Part shown: one piece after another, positions 36,776-45,437 of the stretch
How positions within the stretch are numbered: the stretch's first letter is position 1
Layout of the letters: every line of letters starts with the position of its first letter
DNA from: Robiginitomaculum sp.
Lineage (GTDB): Bacteria; Pseudomonadota; Alphaproteobacteria; Caulobacterales; Maricaulaceae
Length of the DNA stretch: 64,000 nt
Assembly (NCBI GenBank): GCA_026982415.1
Contig: JALSHE010000001.1
Coordinates: 1-64,000, forward strand
Reading direction: 5' to 3'
Translations under genes and position numbers: made by a program
The notes under the pieces: model-generated
The model's database searches: none
Seen by the model: only the letters and a program-made list of their open reading frames with translations
What the model was told of the DNA's origin: nothing

Positions 36776-39700
36776 TTAGTTTCCGACGCGACCGATGATT
36801 TTACCAGCCGTATCAATAATGTTACCATTTGCATCTACGGTTCCGAGAACAACACCTGCACTGTTCACGACCTGACCGTTTGCACGAACAGAGAAATTAC
36901 CCAGAGACATGCTGCTGCTTGAAGCACCACTTGCACCGGAGATAAACTGTGAACCGCCACCAGTAATCGTTCTAGTGGTTGTCGTTGTGGAGCCGCCAGT
37001 AATCATGCCGAGAACCTGACCATTATTACCAACAATGCTGCCATTGCTTGCAAGGCGTCCAACGACTTCACCCGCTGCATTCAGAACCTGACCATTGGTA
37101 CCGATTGTATAGCTTCCGGTACTGGTAGTTACAATGCTACCGACTGCATAGCCTAGGCCGCTATTGATGGAATATCCACCACCAGAGACCATGGAACGCC
37201 AGTCAACACCCAGAGCATCAACTGTACGCAATGTCAGGCCACCCGTAGACAGGCTTTGCGCGATTTGGAATTGTTCGACAGATGCGTAGGTTGCTTGGCC
37301 AAGAATGCCGTCAATGGCACCACGGTAGTAACCACGTTCTTGCAGAGCCGTCTGGATAGCGGAGATAACACTAGCGTTCGAGTTAGCTTCACAAAGAACC
37401 TGACGCCATTCAGCTTTTTCCGGTGTGGTTTGAACACGTTTTTCAATTGTGCCAAATTTAGCCGGAATAACAATCCGTTCAATCCGTGCTGGTTCAACTA
37501 GTCTCTGTACGGAGACTGTGTCGTAACGAGCCGGGATCTCGCGGCGTTCTGTACGGGCTGGAACATCTACCACGCGGCGTGTAACTGTTTTGGTCACTGC
37601 CGGGATAGTCCGTTCCATTGTCGTAGCAGGCGTCTGAACGATACGGCGTGTAACCTGTTTGGTTATCGCAGGAATTACACGTTGCTCGGTACGCGCAGGC
37701 GTTTTGATAACACGGCGGGTCACCTGGTTGGTCACTGCCGGGATTACACGCTCTTGTGTCGTCGCAGGTGTGCGAACTACGCGGCGTGTAACCTGTTTGG
37801 TGATAGCCGGGATAGTCCGTTCCTGCGTAGACGCTGGAGTGTCAACCACACGGCGGGTCACTTGCTTGGTCACGGCTGGTATCACACGTTCGATTGTGTG
37901 TGCAGCGTCTTTGATGACACGGCGCGATACCTGCTTGGTGATAGCCGGGACAGTACGCTCTTCGACGCGCGCCGGAGTTTTGACAACCTGACGCGTAACC
38001 TGTTTGGTTACAGCCGGGATAGTCCGCTCCATAGTCGACGCTGGTGTTTTCACGACACGGCGGCTTACCTGTTTGGTAATTGCCGGGATAGTCCGTTCCT
38101 GCGTAGACGCTGGAGTGTCAACCACACGGCGGGTCACTTGCTTGGTCACGGCTGGTATCACACGTTCGACTGTGTGTGCAGCGTCTTTGATGACACGGCG
38201 TGATACCTGCTTGGTGATCGCTGGAATGACACGTTCTTCAGTGCGCGCCGGGGTTTTAACAACCTGACGCGTCACCTGTTTGGTGATTGCCGGTACGGCT
38301 CTCTCAAACGTAGACGCTGGTGTTTCAACAACACGGCGAGTTTGCGTTTTCGTGATTGCCGGGATGGTGCGTTCCATAGTGCTTGCCGGAGTTTTGACAA
38401 CACGGCGGCTCACTTGCTTGGTTACAGCTGGCACAATGCGCTCAACTGTGTGCGCTGGGTCTTTAATAACACGGCGGCTGACCTGCTTGGTGATTGCTGG
38501 GATAGTCCGTTCCTGCGTCGCTGCCGGAGTATCAACAACGCGGCGGGTAACCGTAGTGGTCACTGCCGGGATGATACGTTCCTGCGTAGATGCTGGTGTT
38601 TTCACTACACGACGAGTTTCCTGCTTGGTAATAGCTGGAATAACCCGCTCAAACGTAGAGGCTGGCGTTTTCACAACACGTCGGCTCACTTGCTTGGTCA
38701 CAGCAGGAATAGTGCGTTCTACTGTGTGCGCTGCATCTTTGATGACACGGCGTGTTTCCATTTTAGTGATTGCCGGAATGACACGTTCTTGCGTAGTCGC
38801 TGGTGTTTTGACCACACGGCGGCTGACCTGTTTGGTGATAGCAGGAACAGCACGTTCAACGATTGACGCTGGTGTCTTAACGACACGGCGTGTTTCCACT
38901 TTAGTGATAGCTGGAACTGTACGCTCCATGGTCGATGCTGGTGTTTTGACCACACGGCGACTTACCTGTTTGGTGATCGCCGGGATAACACGTTCAACAG
39001 TTGACGCTGGTGTCTTAATGACCCGGCGTGTTTCCATTTTAGTGATTGCCGGAATGACACGCTCTTGCGTAGACGCTGGTGTTTTGATTACACGGCGGCT
39101 GACCTGTTTGGTGATAGCAGGAACAGCACGTTCAATAGTGTGCGCTGCATCTTTGATAACACGGCGGGATACCATTTTAGTGATTGCCGGAATAACCCGC
39201 TCTGTTGTACTTGCCGGAGTTTTAACAACACGGCGCGTCACTTGCTGGGTTACAGCTGGGACAACACGTTCAATAGTATGTGCAGCTTCCTTGATCACAC
39301 GGCGTGAACGCATTTTGGTGATGGCTGGAATAGCCCGCTCAATCGCAGATGCCGGAGTTTTGACAACGCGGCGCGTCACTTGCTGGGTCACGGCTGGAAC
39401 AACACGTTCCACTGTGTGAGCAGCATTTTTAATGCGGCGACGTGTTTCCGTTTTCGTGATGGCCGGGACGGCTCTCTCGATTGTGGAAGCTGGCGTCGCA
39501 ACAACGCGGCGGCTAACCTGTTTGGTGATAGCCGGTATGACCCGCTCAATGGTATGGGCTGCGTCTTTGATGACCCGGCGGCTTTCCATTTTAGTAACTG
39601 CTGGAATAACCCGCTCGGTCGTGCTGGCTGGTGTTTTGACCACACGGCGATTAACCTGTTTGGTAATCGCCGGGATAGCCCGTTCAATAGTAGTCGCTGG

Positions 39701-42700
39701 TGTTTTGACCACACGGCGACTGACCTGTTTGGTGACAGCTGGAATAGTACGCTCTTGTACCGAAGCTGGCGTTTTGACCACACGACGACTTACCTGCTTG
39801 GTGATTGCCGGAACAACACGTTCAACGGTATGTGCTGCGTCTTTAATAACGCGGCGGCTTTCCATTTTAGTGATTGCCGGAATAACCCGCTCTGTCGTGC
39901 TGGCTGGCGTTTTAACCACACGACGACTTACCTGCTTGGTAATTGCCGGGATAGCACGCTCAACAGTGTGTGCAGCGTCTTTGATGACGCGGCGACTTAC
40001 CTGTTTAGTGATTGCCGGAATAACCCGCTCTGTCGTGCTGGCTGGCGTTTTAACCACACGGCGGCTAACCTGCTTGGTCACAGCCGGGATAATCCGCTCA
40101 ACGGTTGACGCTGGTGTCTTGATGACACGGCGCGTTTCCTGCTTGGTGATTGCCGGGATGACACGTTCTTGTGTAGAGGCAGGTGTTTTCACGACCCGAC
40201 GGCTGACCTGCTTGGTAATCGCAGGGATAACACGTTCCGTTGTGCTTGCTGGTGTAACCATAACACGGCGGTTTTCCACTTTAGTCACAGCCGGGATAAC
40301 ACGCTCAATACTTGATGCTGGCGTTTTAACCACACGGCGGCTGACCTGGGTGGTCACTGCCGGGATGATACGCTCAACAGTAGATGCTGGCGTTACGATA
40401 CGGCGACGCGTTTCCGTCTTAGTGATAGCCGGGATAACACGCTCTTGTGTAGATGCTGGCGTTTTAACCACACGGCGGCTGACCTGTTTGGTGACAGCCG
40501 GGATAACACGCTCTTGTGTAGATGCTGGCGTTTTAACCACACGGCGGCTGACCTGTTTGGTGACAGCCGGGATAACACGCTCTTGTGTAGATGCTGGTGT
40601 ATCAACAACACGGCGGGTAACCGTAGTTGTCACAGCTGGCACGATACGCTCTTCAGTGCGCGCAGGTGTTGCAATACGGCGGCGTGTTTCTGTTTTAGTG
40701 ATAGCCGGGATAACACGCTCTTGCGTCGTAGCAGGACGGTCAACAACACGGCGGGTAACCGTCGATGTTCTCGCTGGAATAACACGCTCAACAGTGTGCG
40801 CAGGCTGATCAACAACACGGCGGGTGACCTGCTTGGTCACAGCGGGGATAACACGTTCCACCACTTGTGCGTCCGAAGACATCACACGGCGGGAATACGT
40901 ACCCGTTGTGGCGCCGGAGACACCACCGTAAGCACGCTTGCCATTGCCACGGCGATCGGCAGCGCGAGCTGCTGAACTGGATAAACCATCACGGTCATCC
41001 GCACCATTACTATCGCGGTCAATAAAGCCGGATATCGTTCCGTCATTATTATAACCTGAAATCATACCTAAAAGGTTGGCTTCTTTAGCTTCGCGCCAGC
41101 TCATAACGCGAGCTGGTGTGCGCACCACACGTCGGGTAATTGTACCAGTTTTAGCTGGTAATACGACTTCCTCGGTTGTTGCAGATGTTGCAACAACACG
41201 GCGTGTGATTTGACGGGTAACGGCAGGGATAGTTTTCTCAACTGTCCGTGCTGGTGTCACCAAAACACGCTTGGTGATGGTTTTGTACGTTGCCGGGATC
41301 AATACACGACACAAAATCTCGCCAGTTGCGTTCACAATAGTCTCTGTGGACTGAATAATCTGGTTGGACGTGCCATCAAATTCGGTGAATTGGTAACGGG
41401 TATTGGAAGAAATAACACCGCTTCTTTGGATTTGGCTGAAATTACGCGCCTGGTTCGCAGGTTTCCATTCTTCGCGTGCCGGAGAAATTAGCAGGCGTTC
41501 AGTGCGTGTTTCGTACTGAGCCGGAATGACTTGAATTTCTGTGCGGGCAGGCTGTACCACGATAGTTTCGGTTACAGTTCTGTATGTGGCCGGAATTGCA
41601 CGCAATGATGTAGCGGCTTCTTGAACCACATAGGTCTCAGTAACCGTATCATATGTTGCCGGAATAACCACTATGCGCTCAACAGAATCGGACGCTTGAT
41701 ATGTGCCAGTTTCGGTGCGGAATTTCGCACCAATTGTCGCATATTCAACCGTCTCTGGCTGTACAACCATTGTCTCGGTGACAGTTGTGTAGGTTGCCGG
41801 GACGGCGACCAATTCTACAGAAGCTTCCTGAACAACTACAGTCTCTGTAACATCACGGTAAGTCGCAGGGATGGCTACCAATTCGGTAGACGCTTCCTGA
41901 ACCACGATGGTTTCCTGGTAAGTTTCGTAAGTCGCTGGAATAGTTACATAATTGACGGTTTGCGGTGTGACCACAACCGTGTCGCTCACGGTTCTGTATG
42001 TTGCTGGAATGCTTACTAGTTCAGTAGACGCCTCGCGAGCAACAACCGTTTCGGTCACTGTTTCGTACACGGCAGGAATGCTTACTAGCTCAGTGGAAGC
42101 TTCTTGAACAACTACCGTTTCGGTAACAGTTTCGTATGTCGCCGGAATAGTAATCAGGTCAGTAGACGCTTCCTGAACTACGATGGTTTCTTGATAGGTT
42201 TCGTACTGGGCTGGAACGGTTTCGTAAGTTACAGTTTGCGGCGTAACTACAACTGTGTCTGTTACTGTCTCATATGTAGCTGGTACGGATACCAACTCAG
42301 TAGAGGCTTCGCGAACCACAACGGTTTCGGAAACAGTTTCAAACACTGCTGGTGATGTCACGAGTTCAGTAGAGGCTTCTTGCACTACCATTGTTTCAGT
42401 CACAGTCTCATATGTCGCTGGGATAGAAATCAACTCGCTAGAGGCTTCCTGAACCACGATAGTTTCGGAAACGGTCTCATATGTAGCTGGAACAGTGACA
42501 TAATCAACGGTTTGCGGTGTAACCACTACGGTTTCGGTCACTGTCTCGAACACAGCCGGGATAGTCACCAGTTGAGTAGAGGCTTCTTGAACCACTACGG
42601 TTTCGGAAACAGTCTCATATGTCGCCGGTACGGTCACATAATCAACGCCCGCAGCTTGAACCACAACGGTCTCAGAAACGGTTTCGAATACGGCTGGGAT

Positions 42701-45298
42701 AGTGACCATTTGCGTGCTGGCTTCTTGTACGACAACCATTTCAGAAACGGTCTCATATGTCGCCGGTACGGTGACATAATCCACACTTTGCGGCTGAACC
42801 ACAATCGTGTCGGTCACGGTTTCGTAAGTCGCTGGAATAGTCACCAAATCGGTAGAGGCTTCTTGGACAACAACAGTCTCTGTCACAGTTTCGTACACGG
42901 CTGGTACGCTGACATATTCAACACCTGCGGCTTGCACCACAACGGTTTCGGAAACTGTCTCGTAAACGGCTGGAATTTGCACAAGCTCGGTAGAGGCTTC
43001 TTGTACGACAACCATTTCAGAAACGGTTTCGTAGGTTGCAGGAACGGTAACATAGTCAACACCTGCGGCTTGAACCACAATGGTCTCGGTTACAGTTTCG
43101 TAAGTCGCTGGAACGGTAACAAGCTCCACGGAAGCATCCTGAACAACGATTGTTTCTTGGTATGTTTCGTATGTCGCAGGAACCGTGACATAATCAACGG
43201 ATTGCGGGGTTACCACAACTGTGTCTGTAACGGTTTCGTATGTCGCCGGAACGGATACAAGCTCGGTAGAGGCTTCTTGAACCACATAGGTTTCTGAAAC
43301 TGTCTCATATACGGCTGGAACCATGATGTATTCAACGGTTTGCGGGGTTACCACAACGGTTTCTGTCACAGTTTCGAATACGGCTGGAATAGTCAGTACT
43401 TCTGTAGAGGCTTCTTGAACCACAACCATTTCGGAAACGGTCTCATAGGTCGCCGGAACCGTCACATAATCAACGCTAGCAGGTTGAACCACAACGGTCT
43501 CAGAAACGGTTTCGTAAACGGCTGGAATTTGCAACAATTCTGTTGAGGCTTCTTGCACCACAACCATTTCGGATACGTTTTCGTAAACGGCTGGCACGGT
43601 GACATAATCCACTGATTGCGGCTGAACTACAATCGTATCGGTCACGGTTTCGTAAGTTGCCGGAATTGTTACCAATTCAATAGACGCGTCTTGTACAACA
43701 ACGGTCTCGGATACAGTTTCGTACACGGCTGGTACGCTGATATATTCAACGCTTGCGGCCTGAACAACAACGGTATCGGATACGGTTTCATATACGGCAG
43801 GAATGGTAATCAAGTCGGTAGATGCTTCTTGAACCACGACCATTTCAGAAACGGTTTCATAAGTTGCCGGAACCGTCACATAATCAACGCCTGCGGCCTG
43901 AACCACAATAGTGTCTGTAACGGTCTCGTAAGTCGCCGGAACAGATACAAGCTCGGTAGAGGCTTCTTGAACCACGATGGTTTCGGTAACCGTTTCGTAT
44001 ACGGCAGGAATAGTCACATAATCGACGGTTTGTGGTGTGACCACAACAGTGTCGGTTACAGTTCTGTAAGTCGCAGGAATAGCAACCAATTCAGTTGATG
44101 CATCCTGAACAACCATAGTCTCGGTAACGGTTTCATATGTCGCAGGTACAGTGACATAATCAACAGATTGTGCCTGAACAACAACCGTGTCGGTCACAGT
44201 TTCGTAAGTCGCCGGAATAGTTACCATTTCGGTAGACGCGTCTTGAACAACGATGGTTTCGGTTACCGTACCGTATTTAGCAGGCACACTGACAAGCTCG
44301 GTGCTTGCAGCTTGAACCACGATAGTTTCGGTAACAGTCTCGAAAGTTGCTGGGATCGTGATAACTTGTGTCGCCGCTTCTTGAACTACAACGGTTTCGG
44401 ATACGGTTTCATATGTAGCTGGAACAGTGACATAATCAACGCTTGCAGGTTGAACCACAACAGTATCAGTGACAGTTGTATATGTAGCAGGAATTGTCAC
44501 CAAATCGGTGGATGCTTCTTGAACCACAACGGTTTGAGATACTGTTTCGTAAACGGCAGGGATGGTGACCATCTCTGTGGACGCATCGGAAACCACTACA
44601 GTTTCGCTAATAGTTTCGAAAGTAGCTGGAATAGTGATTAAATCAGTGGACGCCTCTTGTACAACGACCGTCTCGGAGACGGTCTCATATGTGGCTGGTA
44701 CTGTTACATAATCTACGGATTGTGGCTGCACGACAACGGTTTCGGAAACCGTAGTATATGTAGCCGGGATTGTTACTATTTCAGTGGTTGCCTCTTTAAC
44801 AACAACCGTCTCGCTAACCGTTTCGTAAACTGGGGGGATGGATACGAGTTGGGTGGAAGCGTCTTGAACAACAACAGTTTCTGTTACTGTTTCGTAGACT
44901 GCTGGGATTGAGGTGTACTCTACTGATTCTGGCTGAACCACAACAGTTTCAGTCGCCGTGCCGTAAACGGCTGGCACTGAAATGATTTCAGTAGATGCAT
45001 CAGATACAACAACAGTTTCCGTCACAGTTTTATATGTAGCCGGAATTGTGGCAAGCTCAAAGCTGGCCTCTTGAACCAGAACGCGCTCGGTTACTGTCTC
45101 GTAACGAGCAGGGATTTTCCGCAGTTCTTCACCAGCGTCTTGCAGGACGATTTGTTCAGATGAAACGGAATACTGTGCGGGAACAATTACCCGGGCGAAG
45201 CATTCGCCGGGAAGTGGATTACCGGGCGGCAAATCCTGGGCAATAGTTGGAATAGCTAAAGCCGCTGTACATACGGCCAATAAAAGAGTGCGTTTCAT
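36776..45298 (-). CDS. Giant secreted/envelope repeat protein: signal peptide, about 53 acidic 23-aa repeats, linker, about 50 basic 23-aa repeats, peptidoglycan-binding-like domain, Gly/Ser-rich tail
   Basis: Single uninterrupted ORF (45313 in the track; 45298 preferred as MKRTLLLAVCTAALAIPTIAQ). Units (I/V)PATYETVTETVVVQEASTELV and IPAITKQVSRRVVKTPASTQERV. C-terminal SAIQTALQERGYYRGAIDGILGQATYASVEQFQ resembles PG_binding_1. Confidence 0.93.
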   Translation of the reverse strand: MKRTLLLAVCTAALAIPTIAQDLPPGNPLPGECFARVIVPAQYSVSSEQIVLQDAGEELRKIPARYETVTERVLVQEASFELATIPATYKTVTETVVVSDASTEIISVPAVYGTATETVVVQPESVEYTSIPAVYETVTETVVVQDASTQLVSIPPVYETVSETVVVKEATTEIVTIPATYTTVSETVVVQPQSVDYVTVPATYETVSETVVVQEASTDLITIPATFETISETVVVSDASTEMVTIPAVYETVSQTVVVQEASTDLVTIPATYTTVTDTVVVQPASVDYVTVPATYETVSETVVVQEAATQVITIPATFETVTETIVVQAASTELVSVPAKYGTVTETIVVQDASTEMVTIPATYETVTDTVVVQAQSVDYVTVPATYETVTETMVVQDASTELVAIPATYRTVTDTVVVTPQTVDYVTIPAVYETVTETIVVQEASTELVSVPATYETVTDTIVVQAAGVDYVTVPATYETVSEMVVVQEASTDLITIPAVYETVSDTVVVQAASVEYISVPAVYETVSETVVVQDASIELVTIPATYETVTDTIVVQPQSVDYVTVPAVYENVSEMVVVQEASTELLQIPAVYETVSETVVVQPASVDYVTVPATYETVSEMVVVQEASTEVLTIPAVFETVTETVVVTPQTVEYIMVPAVYETVSETYVVQEASTELVSVPATYETVTDTVVVTPQSVDYVTVPATYETYQETIVVQDASVELVTVPATYETVTETIVVQAAGVDYVTVPATYETVSEMVVVQEASTELVQIPAVYETVSETVVVQAAGVEYVSVPAVYETVTETVVVQEASTDLVTIPATYETVTDTIVVQPQSVDYVTVPATYETVSEMVVVQEASTQMVTIPAVFETVSETVVVQAAGVDYVTVPATYETVSETVVVQEASTQLVTIPAVFETVTETVVVTPQTVDYVTVPATYETVSETIVVQEASSELISIPATYETVTETMVVQEASTELVTSPAVFETVSETVVVREASTELVSVPATYETVTDTVVVTPQTVTYETVPAQYETYQETIVVQEASTDLITIPATYETVTETVVVQEASTELVSIPAVYETVTETVVAREASTELVSIPATYRTVSDTVVVTPQTVNYVTIPATYETYQETIVVQEASTELVAIPATYRDVTETVVVQEASVELVAVPATYTTVTETMVVQPETVEYATIGAKFRTETGTYQASDSVERIVVIPATYDTVTETYVVQEAATSLRAIPATYRTVTETIVVQPARTEIQVIPAQYETRTERLLISPAREEWKPANQARNFSQIQRSGVISSNTRYQFTEFDGTSNQIIQSTETIVNATGEILCRVLIPATYKTITKRVLVTPARTVEKTIPAVTRQITRRVVATSATTEEVVLPAKTGTITRRVVRTPARVMSWREAKEANLLGMISGYNNDGTISGFIDRDSNGADDRDGLSSSAARAADRRGNGKRAYGGVSGATTGTYSRRVMSSDAQVVERVIPAVTKQVTRRVVDQPAHTVERVIPARTSTVTRRVVDRPATTQERVIPAITKTETRRRIATPARTEERIVPAVTTTVTRRVVDTPASTQERVIPAVTKQVSRRVVKTPASTQERVIPAVTKQVSRRVVKTPASTQERVIPAITKTETRRRIVTPASTVERIIPAVTTQVSRRVVKTPASSIERVIPAVTKVENRRVMVTPASTTERVIPAITKQVSRRVVKTPASTQERVIPAITKQETRRVIKTPASTVERIIPAVTKQVSRRVVKTPASTTERVIPAITKQVSRRVIKDAAHTVERAIPAITKQVSRRVVKTPASTTERVIPAITKMESRRVIKDAAHTVERVVPAITKQVSRRVVKTPASVQERTIPAVTKQVSRRVVKTPATTIERAIPAITKQVNRRVVKTPASTTERVIPAVTKMESRRVIKDAAHTIERVIPAITKQVSRRVVATPASTIERAVPAITKTETRRRIKNAAHTVERVVPAVTQQVTRRVVKTPASAIERAIPAITKMRSRRVIKEAAHTIERVVPAVTQQVTRRVVKTPASTTERVIPAITKMVSRRVIKDAAHTIERAVPAITKQVSRRVIKTPASTQERVIPAITKMETRRVIKTPASTVERVIPAITKQVSRRVVKTPASTMERTVPAITKVETRRVVKTPASIVERAVPAITKQVSRRVVKTPATTQERVIPAITKMETRRVIKDAAHTVERTIPAVTKQVSRRVVKTPASTFERVIPAITKQETRRVVKTPASTQERIIPAVTTTVTRRVVDTPAATQERTIPAITKQVSRRVIKDPAHTVERIVPAVTKQVSRRVVKTPASTMERTIPAITKTQTRRVVETPASTFERAVPAITKQVTRQVVKTPARTEERVIPAITKQVSRRVIKDAAHTVERVIPAVTKQVTRRVVDTPASTQERTIPAITKQVSRRVVKTPASTMERTIPAVTKQVTRQVVKTPARVEERTVPAITKQVSRRVIKDAAHTIERVIPAVTKQVTRRVVDTPASTQERTIPAITKQVTRRVVRTPATTQERVIPAVTNQVTRRVIKTPARTEQRVIPAITKQVTRRIVQTPATTMERTIPAVTKTVTRRVVDVPARTERREIPARYDTVSVQRLVEPARIERIVIPAKFGTIEKRVQTTPEKAEWRQVLCEANSNASVISAIQTALQERGYYRGAIDGILGQATYASVEQFQIAQSLSTGGLTLRTVDALGVDWRSMVSGGGYSINSGLGYAVGSIVTTSTGSYTIGTNGQVLNAAGEVVGRLASNGSIVGNNGQVLGMITGGSTTTTTRTITGGGSQFISGASGASSSSMSLGNFSVRANGQVVNSAGVVLGTVDANGNIIDTAGKIIGRVGN
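37400..40849 (-). repeat. Basic repeat block B: about 50 tandem 69-bp units
   Basis: Hand-aligned translation; exact 69-bp spacing of gggataacac at 40431, 40500, 40569. Confidence 0.92.
41459..45115 (-). repeat. Acidic repeat block A: about 53 tandem 69-bp units
   Basis: Hand-aligned translation into 23-residue units beginning (I/V)PA; boundaries agree with 53 x 69 = 3657 bp. Confidence 0.92.
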
Positions 45299-45437
45299 AA
45301 TGAAAACCCCCAAAACTCAATAAATAACAATCTGCAAAACACAGACACGAACGTAACCCTAACCAAAAGTTAATCAAAAGGCTAGGCATTAATACATGAG
45401 TAGTACACTTTTTTGACTAAAATCAATTGTTTTTTAG

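Follow-up and report, generated by a model that had tools for sequence, protein, structure and literature searches.

Mirrored acidic and basic repeat arrays in a giant alphaproteobacterial protein probably pair as a charge-coded antiparallel beta ribbon

In a 64,000-nucleotide stretch of DNA from Robiginitomaculum sp. (hereafter the window) we identified a giant open reading frame encoding two long repeat blocks of opposite charge, an acidic block A followed by a basic block B, and a covariation analysis across relatives gives good support for the pairing of A unit i with B unit 55-i. The product is very probably a secreted chain, likely tethered to peptidoglycan, that folds into an antiparallel A:B beta ribbon with a charge code. 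We also think it likely that this is a new architecture, in which mirrored arrays of opposite charge zip as a sequence-addressed 54-pair antiparallel beta ribbon, with compensatory substitutions and a length fixed by the pairing.

The giant gene and its product

The open reading frame occupies window positions 36776-45313 on the minus strand, with 2845 codons open from a TTG; the signal peptide begins at an ATG five codons in, at window 45298 (MKRTLLL...), which is the more probable start. Its parts, in window coordinates, are as follows.

36776..45298, minus strand: coding sequence for the giant diblock protein (2840 aa when begun at the ATG; to 45313 if the TTG is used)
45236..45298, minus strand: signal peptide, MKRTLLLAVCTAALAIPTIAQ; orthologs begin MK(R)TLL
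45200..45202, minus strand: first Cys (GEC-F/Y-AR), at the start of module A, found in 24/24 full-length orthologs
41459..45184, minus strand: block A, 54 gapless acidic 23-aa units (A1-A54), EEW at the end, aa 44-1285
41666..41734, minus strand: unit A51, aa 1194-1216, the most degenerate inner A unit; its mirror partner is the degenerate B4
41300..41458, minus strand: inter-block linker (proposed hairpin tip), with the second Cys within GEILC
41093..41299, minus strand: B units 1-3
40919..41092, minus strand: 58-aa insert of module B between B3 and B4, carrying DRDSNGADDRDG, calcium-binding-loop-like
40850..40918, minus strand: B4, a degenerate unit
37400..40849, minus strand: B units 5-54, basic, EW at the end
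37391..37393, minus strand: third Cys (RQVLCE), at the end of module B
37211..37366, minus strand: PG_binding_1 domain, aa 2650-2701 (Pfam E=1e-7)
36779..37105, minus strand: C-terminal tail with Bflower_2 / DUF3659-like repeats

Units of both blocks are 23 residues long and start with (I/V)PA; the 23-aa register of block A is never interrupted in the window, and the whole B block, also of 54 units, spans aa 1339-2638. Units agree with one another at a mean identity of 60% inside A, 69% inside B and 32% across the two blocks. A first-pass annotation of this DNA had described about 53 acidic and about 50 basic units on one polypeptide; the two blocks stand, with the counts corrected to 54 and 54, and the opposite charges it proposed were borne out when charge and pI were computed (net -158 and pI 4.05 for A, about +163 and pI about 11.9 for B). 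It was also right about a signal peptide, which is clear after the ATG at 45298, and about a C-terminal peptidoglycan-binding-like domain, as PF01471 (PG_binding_1) passes its gathering cut-off over aa 2650-2701 (32.4 bits vs 23). This domain was the one convincing match; for the repeat blocks, searches of Pfam, NCBIfam and the PDB gave nothing but hits that stayed under the cut-off, and so no characterised family in the Pfam profile check and no solved structure matching the repeats, and nothing on this protein was found in the literature searched. The equivalent of the 58-aa insert in one ortholog (L027) had no Pfam match. Three Cys residues are found in the mature protein (at the A start, B start and B end), all conserved in 24/24 full-length orthologs, with one Cys beyond these in two Algimonas orthologs. 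Two plus-strand frames lie open antisense to block B, at window 39432-40808 (458 aa) and 38280-39419 (379 aa), and probably just reflect the codon use of the repeats.

Orthologs and conserved locus

A homolog scan of 85,462 species genomes yielded 56 loci, the long forms occurring in Robiginitomaculum, Hellea, Litorimonas and Algimonas and in MAGs near them. Full-length ORFs, acidic then basic and of 2429-3044 aa, are present in 23 other genomes, among them those of the isolates Hellea balneolensis DSM 19091, Litorimonas cladophorae, Robiginitomaculum antarcticum and two Algimonas, which rules out an assembly chimera. At two loci (L025 and L051) the giant ORF is split between two frames (pieces of 2245 and 1913 aa), either by assembly error or by decay. 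The order was covered by 299 genomes, in which matches of ~1.9-3.05 kaa occur in the window's own family alone, plus a few fragments of 386-755 aa; the remaining matches in the order measure 120-510 aa, and the size gap from these up to the giants is empty. Giants were absent from other genera of the window's family among these genomes. The literature describes one member of this family, Algimonas porphyrae, as dimorphic and prosthecate (PMC11556061); a link to the prostheca is not claimed here, as giants are missing from those other genera.

The gene order HAD - giant - rplU - rpmA - GNAT - obgE - proB - proA recurs wherever the locus is long enough, and the giant gene therefore appears to have been inherited vertically. 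The units match orthologous units position by position across genera, and weaker peaks recur at four-unit intervals. This one-by-one orthology, together with the register-specific coupled changes described below, speaks against a polyampholyte spacer or charge store in which composition matters over order, a reading that the near-neutral net charge of the entire chain (+7) and its low complexity would suit and that we find scarcely credible. Many orthologs (L021, L027, L028 and others) carry a 76-147 aa insert after A unit 2, which the window, L024, L037 and L038 lack and which is Bflower_2-like in the one case tested (L027). In five rumen or gut alphaproteobacterial MAG loci (L070, L072 and L074-L076) the match is to the C-terminal tail only (query residues about 145-253), without repeats.

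Unit counts in the two blocks

Units were parsed in 24 full-length orthologs, the window included, and exact A:B counts emerged once the insert-side and last units were parsed. Block A has 54 units in 16 of the 24 and is nearly indel-free once the N-terminal insert that follows unit 2 is set aside. The A:B count is 54:54 in 15/24, or 16/24 counting one unparsed 23-residue unit of L048, and 46:46 in five Hellea-like genomes, where both blocks are 8 units shorter; counts of 42:41, 54:50 and 52:48 were found in one genome each, and the two genomes with four more A than B units count against equal pairing. The acidic-then-basic order and the charge split are kept in the relatives, and the exact count usually is. 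Over the 18 genomes of a first parse, block length and block charge had shown no fine correlation between A and B, and the first-pass counts none. In a tree built from four genes, the 46:46 state appears in two places, L028 and L034/40/41/43; the deleted units overlap, however, and the state might still go back to one event. The signal was too flat to place the site of the 8-unit deletion. The degenerate units A51 and B4 face each other as mirror partners, and the inner conservation and irregularity profiles of A, compared with those of mirror B, gave no clear agreement.

Mirror covariation between A and B units

Mutual information was computed between the columns of A unit i and those of its B partner for the inner units of 15 genomes, with permuted pairs subtracted. 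The antiparallel register i+j=55 came first of 42 A/B registers (9.6, the next being 8.3 and 8.2 and most others 3.3-6.7). The column pairs A11-B7, A6-B14 and A8-B12 stood out in this register only, and their column sums (a+b=18-20) are those expected for facing antiparallel strands. At the residue level, A6 Glu goes with B14 Lys/Arg and A6 Arg/Lys with B14 Asp, and A8 Val goes with B12 Val and A8 Tyr/Phe with B12 Arg. A shift at A6 from an acidic or neutral residue to Lys/Arg is accompanied by Asp/Glu at B14 of the mirror unit. In the mirror register the counts for A6(+)/B14(-) were 86/13/16/695 (odds ratio 287, against 0.1-9 in other registers), the species being related so that any p value is nominal and control properly comes from the remaining registers and from the counts per branch; the separate 46:46 set gave 22/1/2/205 (odds ratio 2255; other registers <=49). 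In the window, position 6 is Lys/Arg in A3, A17, A47 and A49, and each of the respective partners (B52, B38, B8 and B6) has Asp at position 14; the unit pair 17/38 is R/D in the four species of the window's clade and E/K or E/R in most others.

These substitutions also coincide on the tree. Same-branch changes, counted by parsimony, numbered 10 for A6/B14 (chance 0.9, shifted controls 0-2), 7 for A8/B12 (chance 0.3, shifted controls 0-1) and 27 for A11/B7 (chance 5.6, controls 2-5); coupled changes share branches about ten times over chance. With the test clade left out, a pair score built on column pairs chosen from the 15-genome analysis placed antiparallel shift 0 first of 82 registers in 20/20 genomes, 46:46 genomes included. 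A common origin of the two blocks fails to explain this mirror signal because tandem duplication cannot produce similarity in reversed order. Parallel A:B pairing was rejected: its shift-0 mutual information came largely from alternating-unit pairs, e.g., (21,8) and (16,8), that are seen in other registers, and it was the best register in none of the held-out genome tests. The first-pass guess of A/B charge pairing, with an antiparallel arrangement as one option, is thereby upheld and given a register, while its second suggestion, a basic half left free to bind anionic polymers of the envelope, fell away because the charges of B change jointly with those of A. As a separate observation, the A6/B14 flips fall mostly in odd A units and the A8/B12 Tyr/Arg pairs mostly in even ones, which matches the stronger 46-residue period (blocks A and B, window 37400-45184).

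Predicted structure

For L068, a short homolog with four units in each module, AlphaFold2 predicted alternating 12- and 7-residue strands, nine per module (pLDDT 74.5, pTM 0.37). By our reading of the strand limits, those of paired strands add up to 288 throughout, the last short strand excepted, a symmetry that suggests antiparallel pairing of the modules. Foldseek searches with this model gave no match below 1e-3, the weak ones being to long-stranded pore proteins, and only the PG domain matched convincingly, fitting 6tci (SleB N-terminal domain) with a probability of 1.00. Covariation is blind to whether paired blocks belong to one chain, and a swapped dimer or higher assembly, with A of one molecule on B of another in mirror register to give PG-linked fibres or cross-links, predicts exactly the same signal; the three conserved Cys would even leave one for an intermolecular bond. 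However, the linker is short, and the mirror-symmetric strands of L068 were predicted in a monomer run; pairing within one chain would be the simplest topology, and we judge the swapped assembly to be unlikely.

A junction segment (A39-A54, the linker and B1-B6) was designed to leave ten A units partnerless. In the resulting AlphaFold2 model (overall pLDDT 49.7, pTM 0.21), A39-A48 were essentially strand-free at a pLDDT of about 25; A49-A54 and the B units formed strands at a pLDDT of mostly 50-80, with the onset near A48/A49. About six A units thus appear to fold for six B units, as in partner-dependent folding. The same low-confidence model bears on the notion that each block forms an independent beta solenoid or rod whose charges contact other envelope polymers: the strict 23-residue period and the indel-free A block would agree with it, but the near absence of strands in A units without a partner, the register-specific A/B covariation and the equal unit counts make it very improbable.

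Short homologs and a possible origin

The short homologs share a plan of GECYARV, four units, W, linker, GELLC, four units, EWRQVLCETN and PG_binding_1; the form in Henriciella is about 330 aa. The giant fits the frame of this short two-module PG_binding_1 family, with the GEC(Y/F)ARV start, 23-aa units, EW/W module ends, GEI(L/M)C opening the second module and EWRQVLCE closing it; however, there are 8-12 units in that family and 108 in the giant, and its charge split is weaker. In the 4:4 homologs, coupling of an A8 aromatic with a B12 basic residue is seen in the mirror register (8/0/6/27) and is 0 in the others. As the short homologs hold the same plan in small, we infer that the giant is an in-place expansion of both modules from a ~330-aa 4:4 ancestor. 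No description of the short family was found in Pfam, NCBIfam, the PDB or the literature searched, and the neighbours scanned around short homologs had no partner gene in common. The window's own genome carries a second, short 4:4 copy (L077:2286-3470, G000 contig C105) with a Gly/Ser-rich tail and without the PG domain. Ten gammaproteobacterial and other short homologs (L053-L055, L057, L059, L060, L062, L063, L066 and L069) consist of four three-unit modules, 12 units in all, for which the pairing could be 1-4/2-3 or 1-2/3-4.

Proposed architecture and its meaning

We propose that the signal peptide directs Sec export and that the C-terminal domain is a probable peptidoglycan tether at the base of the folded chain. 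A unit i would lie on B unit 55-i to give one very long antiparallel beta ribbon, the linker forming its tip and the N-terminal start coming to lie beside the C-terminal domains at the base; the calcium-loop-like insert, with the linker, would be placed at the tip. Each 23-residue unit would supply a 12-residue and a 7-residue strand split by Pro-Ala kinks. Charge segregation would act as a pairing rule, in which A-A and B-B contacts are disfavoured and A:B contacts mutually neutralising, and the A6/B14 flips, A8 Tyr/Phe with B12 Arg, and A11/B7 would form an address code that sets a unique register. Blocks of like charge would keep apart, and zipping of B onto A, starting at the tip, would follow once B has emerged. 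The AlphaFold2 models are of moderate confidence, and the ribbon could be either straight or wound, with a length that we estimate at about 400 nm or about 50 nm, respectively, and with exact contacts still provisional; a lone two-stranded ribbon would have no hydrophobic core, and lateral packing or winding may be needed. A periplasmic location is likely from the signal peptide and the PG_binding_1 domain, since the relatives are Gram-negative, and the chain may serve as a rigid, PG-linked tether, a ruler or a scaffold whose length is set. A ruler function could account for this constant length, as could the mere fact that an indel without a match in the other block leaves units unpaired.

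In SMC and Rad50 arms an N-terminal half pairs with a C-terminal half as an antiparallel coiled coil with a hinge at the tip, and designed acidic/basic coiled coils use charge-coded heteropairing; those are helices, whereas the giant is predicted to form beta strands, and there is no homology. The SasG / Aap E-G5 rods (PMC4458895) are likewise long, thin, beta-rich extended repeat rods, but SasG is a linear domain string in the Gram-positive wall, not two mirrored complementary arrays, and is not homologous. Periscope proteins (PMC8201768) are also tandem-repeat rods on bacterial surfaces; these vary in repeat number, whereas the giant is held at 54:54.

If correct, this would be a protein zipper found in nature, with its pairing code made explicit, and would offer designers a charge-addressed beta ribbon. 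Its fold would be visible from the repeats alone, with substitutions readable like the base pairs of an RNA helix. Such arrays usually change length quickly, and pairing would explain why this one stays steady at 54 between genera. A molecular ruler in the envelope of a prosthecate bacterium would thereby become a testable question.
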